A stretch of DNA of 64,000 nucleotides from an uncultured Prevotellaceae bacterium. Its GTDB lineage: Bacteria; Bacteroidota; Bacteroidia; Bacteroidales; Bacteroidaceae. The notes beneath the pieces were generated by a model, which saw only the letters and a list, made by a program, of their open reading frames with translations, made no database searches and was not told the origin of the DNA. The stretch spans positions 1 through 64,000 of the forward strand of contig CAMWSK010000008.1 in assembly GCA_947176895.1 (NCBI GenBank). The letters run 5' to 3'. The position numbers were made by a program, and so were the translations under genes. Below are positions 15,960 through 63,452 of the stretch, in pieces; the first letter of the stretch is position 1; each line of letters starts with the position of its first letter.

Positions 15960-17450
15960 ATGAGGACAATTAAAATCGGGCGTTCACACACAAATGACTG
16001 TGTTTTGGACAATCAGACCGTGTCTCGGACTCACGCTGTCATTGACGTTGATGCTGACGAACAACGCGGAAGATTAAGGGATTTGAACTCGACACATGGC
16101 ACCTATGTGAACGGGAAGAGAATCACTGCAGAGGTAATGGTTTCGTGTTCGGATACCCTGCGTTTGGGGTCCGAGGTGATAACCCTTGGTGGAATTTTGG
16201 CCAAAGCCAACAAAACCGTCATTAGAAAAACGGATGCAGGCAGTCTGCCCGGAGTGGAGAGACGGACAATCGGAAAAAGCAGTGACAACAATATCATCCT
16301 GAATCATGACGATGTTTCCAGAAGGCATGCCATTATATATAGGGAAGCTAATGGAAATGTCGTGATTGAAGACCTCAATTCGACAAACGGCACCTATGTG
16401 AATGGGATTAAAATCACCAGCCAGGTCCTGCATGCCGGGGACAAGGTGGCCATAACCAGAAATTACAATTTGGCTTGGGAGAACATATTCAAACCCACGG
16501 CACCTTCTCCGACGTCTATGGTTCAAAAGTTAATGCGTGTGGCGGCAGTCGTTGTTGCCTGTCTTGTGCTTGGGGGAGGTGCGTACTATGGATACACACG
16601 TTTTTCCAAGTGGGACAAGGAAAAGATATACAAGGAGTATCATTCTGCCGTCTGCTGGGTTTATGTCCAATATGGATATAAGGTGTTTGTGGACAACGAA
16701 GACTTTACCCCGGTGTTGTGCCGTTGCACGAATATCGAGGACAAAGGTCTTGTTTACTTTGATGGAGATGATTTGCTGGCCGGTTCCACTGCATCCCAGG
16801 GTACAGCCTTTTTTATAAGCGACGATGGCAAGCTTGCTACAAACCTGCACATTTCAAGACCTTGGCTTTTCTCGGATGATAAAGAAAAATTGGAAGAACT
16901 TGCCAACAGACTGTTGGCCCTTTTGGCAACGCAAAATCCGATGCTGTCGAGAAGTAAGGTTGAAGTAAAATGTGTCCTGCAAGGCATGTATGTGGTTCCG
17001 GACGGACTTCCTGTCAGCGAATCCAATCTTGTCGAGTGCGAAGAAATAAAGGGACATGATGACACAAACAAGGATGTGGCTGTGCTTCAGACAAAAACAA
17101 GAAGGTTGCCCACCGGGGTCAAGAGAGTAATTGATATTAACGATTCCGATGCGAGCGAGGAGGCTCTGACAGAGGGAAGAACGCTTTTCACGATAGGATT
17201 CCCCTACGGAGCGAACATCGCGCAGGACAGCCGTCGGGATTTGAAGAACCAGGTTCATGGCGGTTCGGTCACTCAAAATAAAGGGGAATATGAATTTGGC
17301 CATGATGCGGAAACGGCGGGTGGCGCCAGCGGCTCCCCCATTTTAAATGATAAGGGCTGTCTTATCGGCGTGCACCATGCGGGAGTAACGGGGTCACAAG
17401 GTTTCAATTACGCTATCAAAGTAAAATATTTGATTGACTTGATAAAATAA
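15960..17450 (+). CDS. Double-FHA, single-TM, trypsin-like serine protease
   Basis: A 496-residue product. Two FHA domains (residues ~1-80 and ~98-180) carry the phosphothreonine-binding signature: KIGRSHTNDCVL...SRTHA...LNSTHGTYVNG, then TIGKSSDNNIIL...SRRHA...LNSTNGTYVNG. A TM helix follows at ~190-209 (RVAAVVVACLVLGGGAYYG), then a trypsin/S1C domain. Its triad is recognisable as His297 (NLHIS), Asp372 (NKDVAVLQ) and Ser457 (GGASGSP). The FHA part should be cytoplasmic and the protease periplasmic. It is the first gene of a phospho-signalling cassette, 26 bp before the next FHA gene. Kinase-dependent control of a periplasmic protease is inference from architecture. Confidence 0.85.
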   Translation: MRTIKIGRSHTNDCVLDNQTVSRTHAVIDVDADEQRGRLRDLNSTHGTYVNGKRITAEVMVSCSDTLRLGSEVITLGGILAKANKTVIRKTDAGSLPGVERRTIGKSSDNNIILNHDDVSRRHAIIYREANGNVVIEDLNSTNGTYVNGIKITSQVLHAGDKVAITRNYNLAWENIFKPTAPSPTSMVQKLMRVAAVVVACLVLGGGAYYGYTRFSKWDKEKIYKEYHSAVCWVYVQYGYKVFVDNEDFTPVLCRCTNIEDKGLVYFDGDDLLAGSTASQGTAFFISDDGKLATNLHISRPWLFSDDKEKLEELANRLLALLATQNPMLSRSKVEVKCVLQGMYVVPDGLPVSESNLVECEEIKGHDDTNKDVAVLQTKTRRLPTGVKRVIDINDSDASEEALTEGRTLFTIGFPYGANIAQDSRRDLKNQVHGGSVTQNKGEYEFGHDAETAGGASGSPILNDKGCLIGVHHAGVTGSQGFNYAIKVKYLIDLIK

Positions 17451-17476
17451 ATACTAATATTCAAATTTCAAAGATT

Positions 17477-18052
17477 ATGGCAACAAAGAAATGTCCTAAC
17501 GGTCATCAGTATGACTCGGGTATCTATGGTGACAACTGCCCTTTCTGTCCCAGTGGACACACACATGTCAACAGCGGCACGGAATCTGAGACATGGGGCA
17601 CTGCGGGCAACGGTGGTATGAGCAATGAGACGGGTGCCACTATTCCACAGCCAGGCAATATGGGTAGCGGTGATACTACTTTTGGCTACCCCCTGAACGG
17701 AACAGATGCATCTAACTCTACCAGAGACCGGCGCGTCGTTGGTATCCTCGTTTCCTTTAGTGCTAATGAAGCTGGCGAGGTTTACAAGATTTACGAGGGT
17801 AGGAATATTATTGGCAGAGGCAATGAATGCGACATCCCGTTTCCCAATGACAACAATATGTCCCGTGAGCACTTGCTTATTCAATACATAGAGGCAAAGG
17901 GCGTATTTAGAGCCGTTGACAGAGGTTCTTCCAACGGCACATACATCAATGGCCAGGTTTGCGTGCTGGGTGATATCATAGAGATTAAGACCAATGATGT
18001 CATTGTGCTTGGAAGCACAAAGTTCATCTTCCTTGCCATTCCTCAATTTTAA
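17477..18052 (+). CDS. Zinc-ribbon FHA-domain protein
   Basis: A 191-residue, apparently cytoplasmic product. An N-terminal zinc ribbon (CPNGHQYDSGIYGDNCPFC, four cysteines at about 6, 20, 23 and neighbouring His) is followed by a ~65-residue Gly/Ser/Thr-rich linker. The linker has several Thr residues (GTGATIPQP-like, GDTTFGYP) that could be kinase targets. A C-terminal FHA domain (residues ~95-185) shows NIIGRGNECDIPF, SREHL and SSNGTYINGQ. Such ribbon-linker-FHA proteins commonly accompany PP2C/STK pairs in Bacteroidetes. It probably works as a soluble adaptor, phosphorylated in the linker and bound by other FHA domains. The 26-bp and 12-bp gaps to its neighbours indicate one operon. Confidence 0.82.
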   Translation: MATKKCPNGHQYDSGIYGDNCPFCPSGHTHVNSGTESETWGTAGNGGMSNETGATIPQPGNMGSGDTTFGYPLNGTDASNSTRDRRVVGILVSFSANEAGEVYKIYEGRNIIGRGNECDIPFPNDNNMSREHLLIQYIEAKGVFRAVDRGSSNGTYINGQVCVLGDIIEIKTNDVIVLGSTKFIFLAIPQF

Positions 18053-18064
18053 AGGGTCTGCGCC

Positions 18065-19756
18065 ATGAGTGATAATGCATATTTCTACTGCCACGTAGAA
18101 GGGAATACGGATGTCGGTTGCAAGCGAAAGGCCAATGAAGACTGGCTGGATTCGTTTGAGTGCGAAAACGGTCTTGTGGCAGTGGTTTGCGATGGCATGG
18201 GCGGCCATGTGGGCGGCCGGATTGCCTCGCATGTGGCCGTTGATGCAATCAGAAAATTCCTGAGTTCCCAATATATCCCGAATCCCAAGGATGCGATTGT
18301 CCAGGCTTGCCATGCCGCGAATGCAGCCATCTTGCAAAGAGCGTCGGAGCAACCGGAACTTACCGGCATGGGGTCGACATGCGTCATGTTGATTGTCAGG
18401 GACGGAAAAGTGTATATGGGTTCTGTGGGCGACAGCCGTATTTACCTTGTCAGGAGCAAGACGATACGGCAGCTCACCAAGGACCAAAGCTATGTGCAAA
18501 TGCTGGTGGATGCCGGCCAGATAACGCAGGAGCAGGCAGAGCGCCATCCCAGAAAGAACGAGATAACCAATGCGTTGGGACTCCACGGGATGCAACCGGC
18601 CACCGTCTTGGAAGACCCCATAAATCCTGAGGCGGGAGATTGTTTTGTTCTTTGCTCCGACGGGCTCAGCGGCATGGTTCCCGATCGTGAGATTGCAAAG
18701 GTGGTGGGCAACCAGATGGGCATGAGCCAGCAAGACCGTGTCAACACGTTGATTGACAAGGCACGCAGAAACGGAGGCCTGGATAATATAACCTGCCAGA
18801 TTGTGGAATTTGCCGTGACCCCTTCCGAAAGCGCAAAGCCGGTGGGTTTGAAAAAGCGGTTGATTAAGTATGGCTTGCCCGTTGTCGGCTCTCTTGTTCT
18901 TGTTTCTTGCCTTTCTTTATGGGCTTGGAACCATTTTCATCAGGAAGAAGGGGGGAAGAAGGAAAGCGGTCATGTGAAAGAGATGAGAGAAGTGGCTAAA
19001 TACATTTCATCGGAACCCGAAGACACAATAGTCTTTTCCCGTACGGCAGAGAAGGTCCTGGAAATCGAAGAGGTAACAGGCTTTGGACTCAGATTCTATG
19101 TTTACAATCAGGATGGAAGCGTTGATACAATCAACAAGAACAATCCTCTGTCTTTGTCGACCCTTTCTGTATATCCTGCCGATAGCCTGTCGTTGGAAAG
19201 AAAAGACAATCGTTGCTCCATTGCATTCAGGTGCCGCGATTACACGGAACCGGACATGACCGTAGAACTTAAGGATAAAGATGACAGCACGTATTGCTAT
19301 GTGTTTGCTGTTACCGGACCGATCAAACGCTCTGTTCCTTCCGGAAGCGGAACCGCGCTGTTCTCTCCAAGGACACTCGGAAAGAACCCTGATGAAGCTG
19401 GGCGGGTGCTGGTGGATATCACAACCCCCAAGGAGGATGAATCCGATGAAGGCGGGCAAAGTGATAAGGACACTCCCTTGTCCTATACCATACCAGTGGC
19501 TTCGTCCGAAGTGAAAACCATCACTTTATACAGTAACTTAGACGGAACAAATACGCAAACTGAAATTTACCTGAAAGACTATGCTTATGCCTTCAAGGCT
19601 GGCAAAAAAACAACCGTCTGGTATGAACTCACGAATGATGGAGCCAGGTGTGTCATTAAGATTAAGGGGGGAAAGATTCCCCCAAAGGACAATTTCATCG
19701 ACATCCCGACACAAGAAGAAGGCAAGGTAATCCGCTTGATTTTCCAAAGAAAATAA
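18065..19756 (+). CDS. PP2C-family protein phosphatase with TM anchor and C-terminal domain
   Basis: A 563-residue product. The PP2C (PPM) domain spans residues ~10-260, with metal-binding motifs KANEDW, VVCDGMGGHVGG, GSVGDSRIYLV, LCSDGLSG and the closing GGLDNITCQIVEF. A TM helix at ~268-285 (YGLPVVGSLVLVSCLSLWAW) separates it from a ~270-residue exported part, mostly beta-rich and unrecognised. It should dephosphorylate Ser/Thr residues in the cytoplasm, opposing the kinases encoded downstream. The exported tail may sense or bind something in the periplasm. The gene starts 12 bp after the FHA gene and ends 4 bp before the kinase gene. Confidence 0.9.
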   Translation: MSDNAYFYCHVEGNTDVGCKRKANEDWLDSFECENGLVAVVCDGMGGHVGGRIASHVAVDAIRKFLSSQYIPNPKDAIVQACHAANAAILQRASEQPELTGMGSTCVMLIVRDGKVYMGSVGDSRIYLVRSKTIRQLTKDQSYVQMLVDAGQITQEQAERHPRKNEITNALGLHGMQPATVLEDPINPEAGDCFVLCSDGLSGMVPDREIAKVVGNQMGMSQQDRVNTLIDKARRNGGLDNITCQIVEFAVTPSESAKPVGLKKRLIKYGLPVVGSLVLVSCLSLWAWNHFHQEEGGKKESGHVKEMREVAKYISSEPEDTIVFSRTAEKVLEIEEVTGFGLRFYVYNQDGSVDTINKNNPLSLSTLSVYPADSLSLERKDNRCSIAFRCRDYTEPDMTVELKDKDDSTYCYVFAVTGPIKRSVPSGSGTALFSPRTLGKNPDEAGRVLVDITTPKEDESDEGGQSDKDTPLSYTIPVASSEVKTITLYSNLDGTNTQTEIYLKDYAYAFKAGKKTTVWYELTNDGARCVIKIKGGKIPPKDNFIDIPTQEEGKVIRLIFQRK

Positions 19757-19760
19757 GGTT

Positions 19761-21089
19761 ATGCCATACACCCTAATAGAGGAAATAGGCCATGGCGGTA
19801 TGGGATGTGTCTATAAAGGAATGGATGCAAACGGCCGGAAAGTTGCCATAAAGATGATGAGCAACAAGGTGACCTGTTATCCGGAATACAGGCAGTTGTT
19901 TCAGTCCGAAGTAGACACGCTCAGGCGCATGGATCATCCTTCTGTCGTTCATATCGTCGGGGAACCCTATAAGGATGACAAGGGAAACTTGTATCTCCCG
20001 ATGGAATACGTTGAAGGCCGGACATTGGAGCAAAAGGTCAACGCCGAAGGCACGATTCCTATGGAGGAGGCTGTCAGCCTGATGTGCAAGATTCTCCAGG
20101 CCCTTCAATATGTGCACGACCGTAACCGGATTCATCGCGACATCAAGCCTTCGAACATCATGATTCGCCCGGACGGAAGTGTCTGTATAATAGATTTCGG
20201 CATTGCCAAGGATGCAAGGGTCGGAACGGGAAACACGGTGGGACGAATCATCGGGACGGATGGCTATATGAGTCCGGAGCAGGCAAACGGTCTGAACATC
20301 GACAGGCGGACGGACATTTATTCCTTGGGATGCGTGTTATATTACCTGCTGACAGGGAAACATGCCATTCCGAAAGGGCAAAATGATTATGAAACGATTT
20401 GCAGTATCCTGAAGAACATCCCGGCGTTGCCATCCCAGAGTGGCACAGGCGTATCCACGGCTTTGGACAACGTTTTCGTAAAGGCGGTTGACAAGAACAT
20501 GACCCTCCGCTACCAGACGGCGGCAGAATTTAAGGAGGCCATAGAGCAGGCTGTCGGAAGGGTCTCGCCAAGCGTATCGATTGGAAGATTGGAGAGTAGC
20601 AACATCGTCATCAGGAATGATGACGTCAGCCGGAAACATCTGGTCATTCGCGGCGTGGAACGGCCGATGACCGGTGGGGCGAAACAGTATTTTCTGGAAA
20701 TAGAAGATTTGGGAAGCAAAAACGGTACGGGAGTTAACGGAAGGTTGCTCAGGAGGGACATCTGCCGCATCGATTATGAAGGAACGGTGAATCTGCCCGA
20801 GGTCTTCCTGGCCGGCAAACCGGAACTGTCTGTAAACTGGCCCCAGGTGATGGCCATGTTGAGGTCAAAGGGGTGGAACCCGCAGGTATATAATCCGGAG
20901 AATCCGCCGGTAAAAAAAGAAGAATCGTTGCACTGGTTCTTGTGTGTCGTGAGCCTGGTTCCTTTGGTCGGTTGGGTCCTGTGGGGCGTTTATAAAGACG
21001 GGCATCCCCGGAAAGCCTCGCTTGCAGCCAAGTTGGCTTGGTCCGGCTTCTTGATAAATCTACTTTTGCTATTTGGCATGAGTTTATGA
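19761..21089 (+). CDS. Ser/Thr protein kinase with C-terminal FHA domain and two TM helices
   Basis: A 442-residue product with a complete Hanks-type kinase domain (residues ~3-265): glycine loop IGHGGMGCVYKG, VAIKMM lysine, HRDIKPSNIM catalytic loop, IIDFGIAKD, and activation segment ending GYMSPEQA. An FHA domain (~272-340: SIGRLESSNIVIRNDDVSRK, then GSKNGTGVNG) and a C-terminal two-helix membrane anchor follow. The FHA-linker-2TM part is homologous to most of the protein at 21297-21800. Having kinase and phosphopeptide reader on one chain suggests self-docking or recruitment of the phosphorylated FHA partner proteins. The 3' end runs into an IS982-like terminal sequence at 21078. Confidence 0.9.
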   Translation: MPYTLIEEIGHGGMGCVYKGMDANGRKVAIKMMSNKVTCYPEYRQLFQSEVDTLRRMDHPSVVHIVGEPYKDDKGNLYLPMEYVEGRTLEQKVNAEGTIPMEEAVSLMCKILQALQYVHDRNRIHRDIKPSNIMIRPDGSVCIIDFGIAKDARVGTGNTVGRIIGTDGYMSPEQANGLNIDRRTDIYSLGCVLYYLLTGKHAIPKGQNDYETICSILKNIPALPSQSGTGVSTALDNVFVKAVDKNMTLRYQTAAEFKEAIEQAVGRVSPSVSIGRLESSNIVIRNDDVSRKHLVIRGVERPMTGGAKQYFLEIEDLGSKNGTGVNGRLLRRDICRIDYEGTVNLPEVFLAGKPELSVNWPQVMAMLRSKGWNPQVYNPENPPVKKEESLHWFLCVVSLVPLVGWVLWGVYKDGHPRKASLAAKLAWSGFLINLLLLFGMSL

Positions 21090-21113
21090 AATCGGGATAA
21101 ATCAAGCTGTGTG
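21078..21113 (+). repeat. Decayed IS982-type left end
   Basis: The stretch resembles the left end of the IS982 remnant at 49020-49060: both have GAGTT, then GAA-TC-G-ATAA, then CAAGCTGTGTG. It overlaps the kinase stop codon. Confidence 0.4.
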
Positions 21114-21140
21114 TTTCATGCTGTTTGCAGAGGCTTCAAA

Positions 21141-21231
21141 AGCATGTGGATGTTTCGGGAAAAACATGGTCATCTTTTTCAGAAACATGTTCATGTTTTT
21201 CAAAAACATCTTGATGTTTTCGGGGGGGCTT
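21141..21231. repeat. 21-bp-period palindromic repeat cluster 1
   Basis: Four units in exact 21-bp register start at 21141, 21162, 21183 and 21204. The best unit is AAACATGTTCATGTTTTTCA. Each is an imperfect palindrome with arms AAACATG and CATGTTT. A run of seven G's follows. Similar clusters occur at 30260, 44054 and 63368. Confidence 0.8.
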
Positions 21232-21296
21232 CGTGGCAGGGAATTTTACAGACAATTTTAATTCATCAGACTTACGTCATTTATAAATTATCCATT

Positions 21297-21800
21297 ATGA
21301 AACCAACAATAACAATAGGACGAAGCAGTCATTGCGATATAATCATTCCCAATGGCAGTGTCAGCAGGGAGCATGCCCGTATGAGTATCGTCGGGGGCAA
21401 CTACGTTTACGAGGATGTCGGGAAAAACGGTTCGGTCATCGGAGGACGGGTCATACATGGTCAACGCATCACTGTTGCCGCAGGGGCGGAGATTCTCCTG
21501 GCCGGCAAGGTGCCCCTGCCTTGGGCACAGATATATGCGATGCTTCCGCTAAGGGGAGTAAGGCCTTATGATGGCGATACGCATTATGAACCGGTTCATA
21601 ATGATCCTCCGCAATACGTGTATGTCACAGACGAAAGCATAGGAGTGGGATATGGCATTCTTGCTTTCCTCATCCCTTTGGCCGGTTGGATCATGTATTT
21701 TGCGTGGAAAGACGATTCCCCGAAAAAAGCGTCCCAGGCCAACACGATTGCATGGGCCAGCTTTGTCATTAACCTCTTAGGAATCATTGCCGCACTTTAA
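21297..21800 (+). CDS. FHA-domain membrane protein with two TM helices
   Basis: A 167-residue product. I chose the ATG at 21297 because the FHA fold begins there (MKPTITIGRSSHCDIIIPNG); the upstream in-frame codons are palindromic repeat DNA. The phosphothreonine-binding residues are seen in IGRSSHCD, SREHARM and GKNGSVIGG. The C-terminus (FLIPLAGWIMYFAWKDDSPK, then a second helix) matches the C-terminus of the kinase upstream. The protein is probably an inner-membrane docking site for a phosphorylated partner. The last 14 bp precede the next kinase start. Confidence 0.78.
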   Translation: MKPTITIGRSSHCDIIIPNGSVSREHARMSIVGGNYVYEDVGKNGSVIGGRVIHGQRITVAAGAEILLAGKVPLPWAQIYAMLPLRGVRPYDGDTHYEPVHNDPPQYVYVTDESIGVGYGILAFLIPLAGWIMYFAWKDDSPKKASQANTIAWASFVINLLGIIAAL

Positions 21801-21813
21801 AATACAAATATTT

Positions 21814-24800
21814 ATGATTGGTAAGGAAGTATTAAACTATCGGATTGTCTCCCTGATTGGCAAGGGAGGAATGGGTTCTGTCTATCTTGCAGAGCACACG
21901 CTGATAAGAAACGAGAAAGTTGCCATTAAAGTCATTAATGCGAATATGGTCAATGACTTCACGCGTAACATGCTGAGGGATGAGGCCGAACATCTGGCTG
22001 CTTTGAACCATCCCAACATCGTTGCGTTCAAGAACTATCACATCGACAAATCGGGTAACATCTACCTGATTATGGAATATGCGGATGGACAAAGTCTGGA
22101 GGACTATATCAAGAATGTGAACGGCCTTATTGTTGAAGACAGGATATGCCCGTTGTTCGAGCCTGTTCTTGATGCCGTCGGCTACGCCCACAAGGGTTCC
22201 AAGACACGGAAAAAGATTCTGCACAGAGACATCAAGCCCGCGAATATCGTCATCACAACCGAGGGAATACCCAAAATCCTTGACTTTGGTATTGCGAAGG
22301 TGATAAAGAACCAGGGCGAGGAAGAGGCGGATTCGGTGGTCATGGGCACACCCTCGTATATGAGTCCTGAACAGGTGAGAGGGGAACACCTCGACGAAAG
22401 GTCTGATATCTATTCTCTTGGCGTGTTGCTGCATCACATGATGACGGGTAACCCTCCTTATGACACCACAACGCTCACAGAGCAGGAAATCAACACGAAG
22501 GTCGTGGAGGAACCGCTCCCGAGGATGAGGACCTACTATAAGTATGTATCCGAGAAGGTGCAGAAGATTGTGGATAAAGCCACGGCCAAGAATCCGGCAG
22601 ACCGCTACCAGTCATGCGAGGAGTTCAAGAAAGCGCTGCATAAGGCGATCTATCCCACTCGGATTCCCCAATGGGTAAAGGCTGCGGTAGCGGCAACGGT
22701 CATCCTGATTATGGGAGGGGGCTGGTATTTGTGGGACTACAACCGGATTAAAACCTATTATTATAAGGATTACGTCGAGCGTTGGGGTATTCCGGAAGGT
22801 ATCGGAGAACTGAGCTCAAGTGAGCATGGCCATATGCACCGGTCGTATAAGTTTGTCTATCAGAAAAGGAAACTGCTCCGGGTTTCGCATGTGAACAGCC
22901 TTGACTATCTGATTGACGATGACGAAAGCGAACGTAACGAACGGCCGATAGACCAGACTTTCTCTTATACGGCTGACGGCAAGGTGAGCCGCGTGAAGGT
23001 CATGGACCGCAGCGGCAAGACTCTTTACGTAAAGAGTTACAACGAAAAACTGAATACCATGGCATTCCAGTATGACGACGAACATGGCACCGAACGTGTC
23101 GTGTCTAATCAGACGGTTGGCTATGGCAGGCTTCTGGAGGACAATGCGGATGACCGCGGGCGTATCTCGCGGTGGTGGATTGATTATGATGAAAACGGAT
23201 ACGTGGCCACGGTCAGGTATGCGGGATTGGACAATTCGCCTGTTTGCGACGACAATGGAATCTATGGAAGAACGTATGTGCGCGATGCCAAGGGACGCGA
23301 GACGGAGATTCATTACATAGGAATAGACGGTGAGCCCATGGCCACCAAATGGGGTCTCGGCATAAAGAAGTTCCATTATGACGAGAAGAACAATTGGATA
23401 AAGGCCGAATACCTGACAGTCGACGGGGAAACGGCTTATGATGATACTGACGGTGTCGCTGTATATGTGATGGAGTATGACGAAAACGGAAACATTACCT
23501 ATGCCCTTCATCAGGACGGGGAGGGCAATGGCATGTTGCCCAAGAAAAGCCATGTTGCCGGTGTCCACAACGTATATGACGATAAAGGCTTTATCACTCG
23601 GATGGAATTTTTGGATGTTGACAGAAAGCCTATGTTTGTGAGAGGTTCGGGAGTTGCGATTGTCAAGAAAGAGTATGACGGGCATGGATATTTGTCGAAG
23701 TCGTCATTCTTTGATCCCGACGGAAATCCCACGGATTGCCAGGATGGCAACTCCGCCAATACGTTGGTGAACGATGAGCATGGAAATGTGCTTGAGGCGT
23801 GGTTCTATGGCAAGGATGGGAAGCTATGCGAGATTTCATCCGGCAGTGCCGGCATGAAGGCGGAGTATGACTCTGTCGGCAATCAAATCAAGGTGGTAAA
23901 CTACGGTACCGATAAACAGCCATGTGTGGGTAGCGATGGTACTTACGGAACATTGACCGAGTATGACGACCGTAATCTGGTGGTTAAAACCACATCCTTG
24001 GGCGCGGACTTACAGCCGGCTCCCGGCAATAACAACGTTATCATAGCGAAATATGATTACGACAAACGCGGTAATACCACAAAGGTCTCGTTCTATAATG
24101 CGGGTGACAGCATTTTGCGTCTTTCTCATGAAGGATGTGCGGGATGGAATGACATCTATGATGACAATGGGAATCATCTTGAAAGAAACTTCTTCGGGAC
24201 AGACGGCCAACCGATTCTTCCGGCGGGAATACATTATGCGAAGGTAAAATATACGTATGACGAGAACGGTAATCTGAAATCCTCCAGGTATTATAATTTG
24301 CAGGGTTCGTTGACTGCCGTAAACGGCGTTGCCGGAAGAGATTACAAGAATGACAAACGAGGGAATACATTGGAGGAAACCCCGATAGGCTCAAATGGCA
24401 AGTTGGCCGCCAACTATCTTATTACAAAGTACAAATATGATAAGTTCGACAATATAACGGAGATATCGCTATATGACGCTTCCGGAGCCGCGACTAATTC
24501 TACTGGCATCCATAAGTATGTATATGTGTATAACAGCCGCAATCAGGAAGTTGAAGAAAGCTACTATGGCACGAACGGTGCATTAGTTCTGTCCAACGAG
24601 ACAAAAACCGCCATCCTCAAGAATGAATATAATAGCAAGGGCGAACGTGTAAAGGCATTCTATTTCGGAACCGACCGCAAACCATGTAAATCAAAAGAGG
24701 GGTGGAGTAGCTCTACGTATGAATATGACGCTTTTGGCAATATTGTCAAACAATGTTTCTTTGGTGTAGACGGCAAACCGACAAATCCTGTTGATATGGT

Positions 24801-25611
24801 TCCGGTGGGCATAGCGAAATACGACAAGTGGGGTAATAAGATTTATATAGCAGCCCAGGATGGCCATGGTAAATTTATAAACCGTCCAAATGATAATTGG
24901 GCTATCAGCCGGAATGACTATGACAACAAGGGCAACAAGCTCTCACAGTCATATTACAATCCGCAGGACAAACCTACTTTGTCTTCTGACGGCTACCACA
25001 AAGTCAAATATGTTTATGATAATCAAAACAGAGAGACAGAGGCTTCATATTATGGTACAGACGGGAAACCTATACTTGTAAATAACTATCATAAGGAAAC
25101 TTACAAGTATGCGGAAAACTCAGATAAGATTATCGAGAACGCGATGTTTGACAAAACCGGAAAACCCGTGAATTGCTCGGGAGGGTGGCATAGACTGGTT
25201 GTTACATACAACGAGGATGGCAATATTGCGGAAACAAAGAAATATTATCTTGCAAATGGCACGTTGCTGGCAACACAGAAGTGGAACGGAGAAGAATGGG
25301 TTCTGGTGCAAAGAGAATACATTTGGCAAGAAGGTGCTCGTGAGCTTGCTGCCGAATTGCCATACCCTTGCGGAACGGACTCTTATGGCTTGACGGTTGA
25401 ATCCTTAACCATCACCGGCGAAAATTCATGTGAGTTGAAGTTTACATTCTCATACACAACCGGTCAGTTGAATGCTGATACCGTATCGAAGTTAAAGGAG
25501 GCCGTGAAAATGATGGTTGATGCGGTTGAAAGTGAATTGAGGCACAAGCCGTATGTGACAGGAAAACTTTATGACAGGAATGGGAAGATGGTCTTTTCCT
25601 ACAGGAAGTAG
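21814..25611 (+). CDS. Ser/Thr protein kinase with large exported YD-type repeat region
   Basis: A 1265-residue product. The kinase domain spans ~8-275 (LIGKGGMGSVYLAEH, VAIKVI, HRDIKPANIVI, ILDFGIAKV, SYMSPEQVRG). A TM helix is at ~287-306 (VAATVILIMGGGWYLWDY). The remaining ~950 residues are tandem ~45-55-residue repeats built on phrases such as YDENGNI, YYGTDGKP and FYGKDGK, like YD/RHS repeats. There is no RHS core or toxin-type C-terminus; the last ~80 residues form a distinct domain. I chose ATG 21814 since MIGKEVLNYRIVSLIG is the usual kinase start. The repeat region should be periplasmic or extracellular, giving a receptor-kinase layout. A strong terminator follows at 25638. Confidence 0.9.
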   Translation: MIGKEVLNYRIVSLIGKGGMGSVYLAEHTLIRNEKVAIKVINANMVNDFTRNMLRDEAEHLAALNHPNIVAFKNYHIDKSGNIYLIMEYADGQSLEDYIKNVNGLIVEDRICPLFEPVLDAVGYAHKGSKTRKKILHRDIKPANIVITTEGIPKILDFGIAKVIKNQGEEEADSVVMGTPSYMSPEQVRGEHLDERSDIYSLGVLLHHMMTGNPPYDTTTLTEQEINTKVVEEPLPRMRTYYKYVSEKVQKIVDKATAKNPADRYQSCEEFKKALHKAIYPTRIPQWVKAAVAATVILIMGGGWYLWDYNRIKTYYYKDYVERWGIPEGIGELSSSEHGHMHRSYKFVYQKRKLLRVSHVNSLDYLIDDDESERNERPIDQTFSYTADGKVSRVKVMDRSGKTLYVKSYNEKLNTMAFQYDDEHGTERVVSNQTVGYGRLLEDNADDRGRISRWWIDYDENGYVATVRYAGLDNSPVCDDNGIYGRTYVRDAKGRETEIHYIGIDGEPMATKWGLGIKKFHYDEKNNWIKAEYLTVDGETAYDDTDGVAVYVMEYDENGNITYALHQDGEGNGMLPKKSHVAGVHNVYDDKGFITRMEFLDVDRKPMFVRGSGVAIVKKEYDGHGYLSKSSFFDPDGNPTDCQDGNSANTLVNDEHGNVLEAWFYGKDGKLCEISSGSAGMKAEYDSVGNQIKVVNYGTDKQPCVGSDGTYGTLTEYDDRNLVVKTTSLGADLQPAPGNNNVIIAKYDYDKRGNTTKVSFYNAGDSILRLSHEGCAGWNDIYDDNGNHLERNFFGTDGQPILPAGIHYAKVKYTYDENGNLKSSRYYNLQGSLTAVNGVAGRDYKNDKRGNTLEETPIGSNGKLAANYLITKYKYDKFDNITEISLYDASGAATNSTGIHKYVYVYNSRNQEVEESYYGTNGALVLSNETKTAILKNEYNSKGERVKAFYFGTDRKPCKSKEGWSSSTYEYDAFGNIVKQCFFGVDGKPTNPVDMVPVGIAKYDKWGNKIYIAAQDGHGKFINRPNDNWAISRNDYDNKGNKLSQSYYNPQDKPTLSSDGYHKVKYVYDNQNRETEASYYGTDGKPILVNNYHKETYKYAENSDKIIENAMFDKTGKPVNCSGGWHRLVVTYNEDGNIAETKKYYLANGTLLATQKWNGEEWVLVQREYIWQEGARELAAELPYPCGTDSYGLTVESLTITGENSCELKFTFSYTTGQLNADTVSKLKEAVKMMVDAVESELRHKPYVTGKLYDRNGKMVFSYRK

Positions 25612-25637
25612 AGTTATTTGTATCGTGTAAACAGACT

Positions 25638-25689
25638 GTGTACCAAATAAGTTGACACAACAACTTATTTGGTACACAACTTTTTTGTG
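25638..25689 (+). terminator. Intrinsic terminator of the FHA/kinase cassette
   Basis: A perfect 17-bp stem (GTGTACCAAATAAGTTG, 25638-25654, with 25661-25677), a 6-nt loop, then AACTTTTTT. It ends the operon 27 bp after the kinase stop. Confidence 0.85.
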
Positions 25690-30259: not shown

Positions 30260-30370
30260 AAATACATCGCGATATTTCGGTGAATGCATCGCAATGTTTC
30301 GATAAAAACATCGCGATGTTTTTTGAAAACGTCTTCATGTTTTTGGTGAAACATCACGATGTTTTTCATG
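30260..30370. repeat. 21-22-bp-period palindromic repeat cluster 2
   Basis: Five units of an imperfect palindrome, the clearest being AAAACATCGCGATGTTTT (near 30305-30322), followed by variants with TCTTC or TCACG centres. It lies within the 480-bp gap between secDF and the EEP-family gene; the rest of that gap shows no gene. Confidence 0.7.
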
Positions 30371-44053: not shown

Positions 44054-44117
44054 AAACATGTTCATGTTTGAGGCGAAACATGAACACGTTTTTGAAAAAC
44101 ATGAACATGGTTTTTCG
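44054..44117. repeat. 21-bp-period palindromic repeat cluster 3
   Basis: Three units starting 44054, 44076 and 44097, with AAACATGTTCATGTTT and AAACATGAACATGG cores, followed by a run of eight G's. It lies in the gap between divergent hexosaminidase and TPR genes; nothing else is seen there except promoters. Confidence 0.75.
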
Positions 44118-63367: not shown

Positions 63368-63452
63368 AATACATGAACATGTTTGAGCCAAAACATGAAC
63401 ACGTTTCTGAAAAACATGAGCATGTTTTTCAGAAAACATTTATATGCTTTTT
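63368..63452. repeat. 21-22-bp-period palindromic repeat cluster 4
   Basis: Four units with cores ACATGAACATGTTT, ACATGAACACGTTT, ACATGAGCATGTTT and ACATTTATATGCTT. It lies 48 bp downstream of lpxB. The rest of 63453-63640 holds no gene that I can see. Confidence 0.75.

Follow-up and report, generated by a model that had tools for sequence, protein, structure and literature searches.

A compact six-gene FHA, PP2C and Hanks-kinase cassette with an FHA-tethered trypsin-like protease in Bacteroidales

The window analysed here is a stretch of 64,000 nt from an uncultured Prevotellaceae bacterium (contig C8 of the source genome, a Bacteroidales assembly of 2.42 Mb that is 88% complete). Six plus-strand genes at positions 15960-25611 form a compact conserved unit whose parts can all be tested together; it unites a predicted YD-spiral receptor kinase with a concrete output in the form of an FHA-tethered periplasmic protease. 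The balance of evidence leans towards the operon being a membrane-bound Ser/Thr phospho-signalling cassette, in which an envelope signal would act through kinases and PP2C on FHA clustering and thereby gate the periplasmic protease. Direct support comes from the domains, the intact active-site motifs, the conservation of the six genes, the occurrence of the same transmembrane (TM) segment and ectodomain under a TIR domain and the predicted YD-spiral fold; the later steps we infer. The features of the operon are as follows:

15960..17450, plus strand: gene 1, FHA-FHA-TM-trypsin-like protease, 496 aa (Pfam FHA x2, E 1e-37; Trypsin_2, E 2e-11)
17477..18052, plus strand: gene 2, zinc-ribbon-FHA adaptor with a variable linker, 191 aa (Pfam FHA; zinc-ribbon motif)
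18065..19756, plus strand: gene 3, PP2C phosphatase with a TM segment and a periplasmic tail, 563 aa (Stp1/IreP family in NCBIfam, above cut-off)
19761..21089, plus strand: gene 4, Hanks kinase-FHA-2TM, 442 aa (Pfam Pkinase, E 6e-51; FHA)
21110..21245, no strand: dispersed palindromic repeat in the gap between genes 4 and 5 (15 AAACATSWTSATGTTT matches at 4 window sites)
21297..21800, plus strand: gene 5, FHA-2TM protein, 167 aa from ATG 21297 (Pfam FHA, E 5e-12; orthologues with similar length and start)
21814..25611, plus strand: gene 6, Hanks kinase-TM-periplasmic YD-repeat spiral-small C-terminal alpha/beta domain, 1265 aa (Pfam Pkinase, E 2e-52)
25637..25678, plus strand: rho-independent terminator ending the operon (18-bp stem, 6-nt loop, T tail)

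The six open reading frames (ORFs) were all present with the domains named in the original prediction, as judged from the ORF list and from Pfam and NCBIfam profiles. The intergenic gaps from gene 1 to gene 6 were 26, 12, 4, 207 and 13 nt, so that the small gaps and the single long one which had been described also held. The best start was ATG 21297 for gene 5, rather than GTG 21111, and ATG 21814 for gene 6. The strong terminator that had been proposed was found with its stem followed by a T run. No Rfam elements were found near the operon, and the 23 promoter-like matches were near chance level (15.8 +/- 3.8 in shuffled sequences), so no promoter is claimed.

A sample of 399 genomes of the family, from 30 genera, was searched with A1, a profile of the protease gene. 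The full-length FHA-FHA-TM-trypsin gene was present in 22 of these genomes and in 12 genera. The compact kind of cassette, with the window's six genes in identical order, was complete in five other genomes (G841, L177; G575, L179; G720, L181; G722, L182; G863, L183), and a further copy in G593 (L178) ended within gene 4 at a contig end. These copies showed 36-60% identity to the window per gene. The compact cassette was rare, being found in 7 of the 399 genomes with the window copy included. Among 139 genomes of the source genus it was found only in the source genome itself, and two congeners (G014 and G489) had the extended kind described below. Overall, by gene order and sequence the six-gene unit is a real, conserved and patchily distributed cassette. 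The recurrence of the gene order across relatives, proposed at the outset as the check, was thereby confirmed, as was the description of a self-contained writer, eraser and reader cassette with a likely protease effector. A single-protein scan of genome contigs showed one remote protease match only, in a Saccharibacteria metagenome-assembled genome.

The rates of nonsynonymous and synonymous substitution (dN/dS) were compared for one close pair of compact loci (G593 and G575) and were 0.06/0.81 for gene 1, 0.02/1.0 for gene 2 and 0.16/0.93 for gene 3. With ratios of 0.02-0.17, the compact cassette is under purifying selection as far as genes 1-3 of this pair indicate. The flanks of the compact loci varied between genera and were mainly metabolic or housekeeping genes, with one locus near a VapE-like mobile gene. 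The genes flanking the window cassette were not syntenic in congeners, and the empty-site comparison gave no proof of insertion. In addition, gene 6 is followed in three compact loci (L179:3672-4136, L181:3310-3786 and L182:16442-16915) by a secreted protein (FLKEEGF.P..DSDGDIKFKKEG, about 155 aa) that is absent from the window; the one tested had no Pfam match.

Gene 1 was predicted to place its FHA pair in the cytoplasm and its protease domain in the periplasm, with the TM segment at about residues 186-204. The triad H297/D372/S457 did not vary when gene 1 was aligned with five other loci, nor among the 7 compact copies, and the His-Asp-Ser triad together with a GxSGSP motif identifies gene 1 as an S1 trypsin-like peptidase. 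Gene 1 showed no PDZ match in Pfam and scored 20 bits with TIGR02037 (cut-off 416), so it did not classify as HtrA/DegP/DegS. Each of the 28 protease homologues examined was accompanied by another FHA gene and by a gene for a kinase, a PP2C or both, which ties the protease to phospho-signalling.

The other catalytic residues that had been noted were likewise intact. The kinase motifs VAIK/HRD/DFG were complete in the window, with the Lys and Asp motifs kept across the compact copies, and the metal motifs DGMGG/SDG/DN of the gene 3 PP2C were intact and kept across the same copies. Gene 3 scored 233.5 bits with NF033484 (Stp1/IreP-type) against a cut-off of 230, and the best NCBIfam matches of kinase and PP2C were the Stk/Stp families. 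The zinc ribbon of gene 2 (CPNGH...CPFC) lies ahead of its FHA domain and was kept as CxNGH..CPFC in the 7 compact copies. The phosphate-binding motifs of the window's FHA domains were intact except in FHA1 of gene 1, and nearly all were kept across the compact copies. The FHA-2TM half of gene 4 was found to be a paralogue of gene 5 (blastp, 33% identity, E 6e-23).

The region of gene 6 that follows the TM segment had a repeat period of 32-33 residues. These repeats scored 10.8 bits with the Pfam RHS_repeat model PF05593, below its gathering score of 22, and no PDB sequence was matched by the ectodomain in a search. The ectodomain was modelled with AlphaFold2 together with six relatives (mean pLDDT, the predicted local distance difference test, 81; pTM, the predicted template modelling score, 0.65), and the model showed a long series of beta-hairpins. 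The top 45 Foldseek matches to this model were all related to YD shells (Rhs, teneurin, TcC), with a best E of 2e-31 and TM-scores of only about 0.15-0.33, and VIA-align gave Z up to 10.3 against the YD shells of Rhs, teneurin and TcC. The fold predicted for the ectodomain is a YD-repeat beta-spiral like those of Rhs and teneurin; the YD assignment made earlier is supported, as YD-shell-like, at the level of predicted fold, with a repeat unit that falls below the Pfam cut-off. The last ~97 residues (about 1169-1265) of the model matched the type II secretion pilotins AspS and EpsS (Z 8.2-8.4 over 90-97 residues), and a putative pilotin-like fold of this C-terminal domain is a lead only. No PASTA match was found in gene 6 with Pfam, and NF033483 gave 257.6 bits, below its cut-off of 450.

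A TIR-TM-YD-repeat protein in a congener shared the TM segment, the juxtamembrane segment and the repeats of gene 6 (blastp, E 9e-37 over 547 aa; TIR_2, E 2e-16). The gene 6 ectodomain is taken as a putative exchangeable sensor because the congener has the same TM segment and ectodomain under TIR instead of a kinase, and such swappable cytoplasmic outputs under one ectodomain would fit the behaviour of a sensor module, as far as architecture can suggest. The proposal of a YD-repeat kinase reading an outside signal to control a protease therefore keeps its sensor role, but both the sensor and the protease domains are expected in the periplasm and not outside the cell. The TIR-TM-YD gene (L108/L114; G439:C1:1-2106, minus strand) had no cassette genes on its readable side, and its other side was a contig end.

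In the proposed mechanism, the YD-spiral of gene 6, perhaps with the periplasmic tail of PP2C, would sense a periplasmic state or ligand and shift the balance between kinases and PP2C. The kinases would phosphorylate linker threonines of the FHA proteins at a recurring T-V-I/V-type motif, and PP2C would dephosphorylate them. The FHA domains of genes 1, 2, 4 and 5 would bind the phosphothreonines, with clustering of the proteins at the inner membrane, and this inside-out clustering would activate or shut down the trypsin-like domain of gene 1 in the periplasm. Local periplasmic proteolysis would then be the answer of the cell to the envelope signal. In favour of this mechanism, the pattern T[VILM][IVLFMA][RPQGKH] occurred 29 times in the adaptor linkers, in 21 of 23 linkers, compared to an average of 1.9 in shuffles. 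This linker motif recalls OdhI, in which the N-terminal Thr14 is phosphorylated (PMC2784874), a likeness that is suggestive only.

Several observations weigh against this mechanism. FHA1 of gene 1 has STHGT where the canonical motif is STNGT, with the Asn missing. The linker threonine motif is TVI[RK] in the orthologues of gene 2, and the window copy carries the weaker form DTTFG. The enrichment of the linker pattern is suggestive only, as the pattern was picked after inspection of the sequences and kinship inflates the count. Finally, the arginine of the HRD motif of gene 6 was lost in three compact copies, in which its regulation may differ from that in the others.

The orthologous protease gene was also found in an extended kind of cassette (21 loci, including the more remote G357), together with FHA, kinase, PP2C-TM and FHA-TM genes. 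Two secreted proteins were also encoded in most of the extended cassettes, one with WG repeats and one a conserved protein of about 415 aa, and a small outer-membrane beta-barrel was frequent. In G294 (L066/L078), G683 (L165) and G709 (L166) the extended cassette continued in a same-strand run into ClpV, TssB, TssC, Hcp and VgrG of a type VI secretion system (T6SS), and in G309 (L067) it ran into ClpV-TssB-TssC before the contig end. These four cassettes formed one clade (100/100), the smallest well-supported wider group being that with the compact clade (96/95), and the remaining extended loci formed a separate group. Because all four T6SS-linked cassettes fall in one clade, recruitment of the cassette into T6SS probably happened only once, as read from the tree.

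This link bears on the alternative that survives best, an unlikely one, in which the cassette would be a free-standing relative of the PpkA/PppA/Fha module that post-translationally controls whether a contact-dependent machine, for secretion or in the envelope, is assembled, with the protease as a licensing or quality-control part. The same-strand runs into T6SS genes and the grouping of that clade with the compact one speak for it, as does the architecture of PpkA, which also has an N-terminal kinase, a TM segment and a periplasmic domain (PMC12607579). However, neither TssC PF17541 nor PF05943 was found in the source genome at its 88% completeness, and for this reason the window cassette was rejected as a T6SS component; TssC was found in 17 of 393 Bacteroidales genomes surveyed. 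No T6SS genes were found beside the compact copies in the stretches that were read, the T6SS-linked cassettes had kinase and PP2C lineages that differ from those of the window, and the link is confined to one clade and possibly one event, with 17 of the 21 extended loci having no T6SS genes nearby. The earlier idea of contact sensing is supported only indirectly, through the related clade built into T6SS loci. A combined proposal, in which a YD-spiral receptor Ser/Thr kinase would control a cross-membrane protease through cytoplasmic FHA-phosphothreonine clustering and a related lineage would have been recruited as phospho-control of Bacteroidota T6SS, is put forward as tentative. The clade at T6SS loci makes it a testable question whether some Bacteroidota T6SSs have their own phosphorylation pathway.

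Trees of the kinase and PP2C domains, which predate the discovery of the compact copies, grouped the window PP2C and, less clearly, the window kinases with vWA-type cassettes and away from the extended ones. Since the placement is with the vWA-type rather than the extended cassettes, the cassettes are mosaic in origin. A reading of the window cassette as a one-off hybrid of a vWA-type kinase/PP2C set and a protease-type effector, taken from these trees, was dropped as the identical six-gene unit was found elsewhere in the family.

Less probable still is envelope homeostasis of the PrkC/PrpC type, in which the kinases and PP2C would chiefly regulate enzymes of cell-wall or outer-membrane biogenesis encoded elsewhere and the FHA-localised protease would be a constitutive DegS/HtrA-like quality-control enzyme. 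The Stk/Stp matches, the housekeeping flanks of the compact loci and the WG-repeat and outer-membrane beta-barrel proteins of the extended cassettes are consistent with this, but the patchiness within family and genus is unlike a core system and the protease lacks a PDZ match. A module for phage defence or abortive infection, where infection would trigger kinase signalling and a protease effector, is very improbable: the patchy distribution, the kinase matches to PD-T4-6 models and weak protease match to RT-Protease_XI in PADLOC and the joining of the same ectodomain to TIR favour it, but the PADLOC kinase matches are generic to Hanks kinases, a periplasm-facing protease with a periplasmic sensor is unusual for intracellular phage sensing, and the flanking genes tested for domains and defence at four compact loci held no convincing defence genes (only generic ATPase matches and one PrimPol-like match on the VapE-like gene), so that the defence role and defence-gene proximity proposed earlier were not borne out.

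The phospho-signalling cassette preferred here shares parts with known systems, as kinase/PP2C/FHA signalling, FHA-regulated membrane effectors, zinc-finger-FHA adaptors and T6SS threonine phosphorylation are already known. In common with PpkA, PppA and Fha of the T6SS threonine phosphorylation pathway, it co-encodes a receptor-like kinase with a periplasmic C-terminus, a PP2C and an FHA reader in one locus, and a related clade abuts T6SS; it differs in having no detected T6SS and in its extra FHA proteins, FHA-tethered protease and YD ectodomain. With PrkC/PknB-PrpC/PstP (Stk/Stp) and GarA/OdhI-type FHA proteins it shares the Hanks catalytic family, an Stp1/IreP-type PP2C and an FHA adaptor whose N-terminal part carries a threonine motif, but it has no PASTA ectodomain and adds a kinase-FHA fusion, a membrane FHA-protease and a six-gene operon. 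Rv1747/PknF, an FHA-regulated ABC transporter with its cognate kinase, likewise has an FHA-bearing membrane effector encoded beside a kinase, whereas the effector of the window is a periplasmic protease and PP2C and adaptor are included. ArnA-ArnB of Sulfolobus, with kinases ArnC/ArnD (PMC6509490), also combines a zinc-finger-FHA adaptor with Ser/Thr kinases, but regulates archaeal motility, has no protease and uses the phosphatase PP2A instead of PP2C. The predicted beta-hairpin spiral of gene 6 resembles the shells of Rhs, teneurin and TcC, but is fixed in the inner membrane under a kinase, has a 32-33-aa unit and shows no identified toxin or autocleavage domain.

The six-gene cassette is apparently undescribed. 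A literature search, with most subscription journals and preprints outside its coverage, did not find this gene set, an FHA-tethered periplasmic protease, a YD-spiral receptor kinase or a link between such a cassette and T6SS in Bacteroidota, and two papers on Bacteroidota T6SS (PMC10781749, PMC4714493) did not mention a kinase or FHA. FHA/PP2C/Hanks-kinase signalling in Bacteroidales is poorly documented.

The 207-nt gap between genes 4 and 5 was unique to the window copy, the other compact copies having -4 to 30 nt. It holds one cluster of the palindromic repeat AAACAT..ATGTTT (AAACATSWTSATGTTT), which was absent from this gap in the other compact copies. The 15 matches in the window (0.01 expected) formed clusters spaced by about 21 bp at 21183-21219, 30327-30364, 44054-44112 and 63369-63427.

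Other observations concern related loci. On the far side of the T6SS locus of G294, a second kinase/FHA set (L078:361-4109) comprised a zinc-ribbon-FHA protein, a divergent kinase-FHA and a kinase-TM. In G309, Cas1 and Cas9 genes (L067:15564-19998) preceded the T6SS-linked cassette at a distance of a few kb on its upstream side, and in G385 a caspase-like (Peptidase_C14) secreted protein (L064:11032-12180) adjoined an extended cassette. The source genome has a second, paralogous cassette (L001; G000:C13:4128-13366) with ZnR-FHA, vWA-TM-FHA, FHA-TM, PP2C-TM, kinase, kinase-TM-FGE and FHA-TM genes, in which vWA-TM-FHA and a kinase-TM-FGE-sulfatase-like protein take the place of the protease and the YD kinase; its pairing of ZnR-FHA with vWA-FHA recalls the zinc-finger-FHA and vWA pair of ArnA-ArnB. 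Finally, a triple-FHA ABC-2 transporter of about 950-970 aa was found at L063:6131-9046 (FHA x3, ABC_tran, ABC2_membrane) and also in L020, L057 and L071. It heads vWA-type kinase/PP2C cassettes in L020 and L063, an Rv1747-like arrangement which extends the likeness to Rv1747/PknF to the vWA-type Bacteroidales cassettes.

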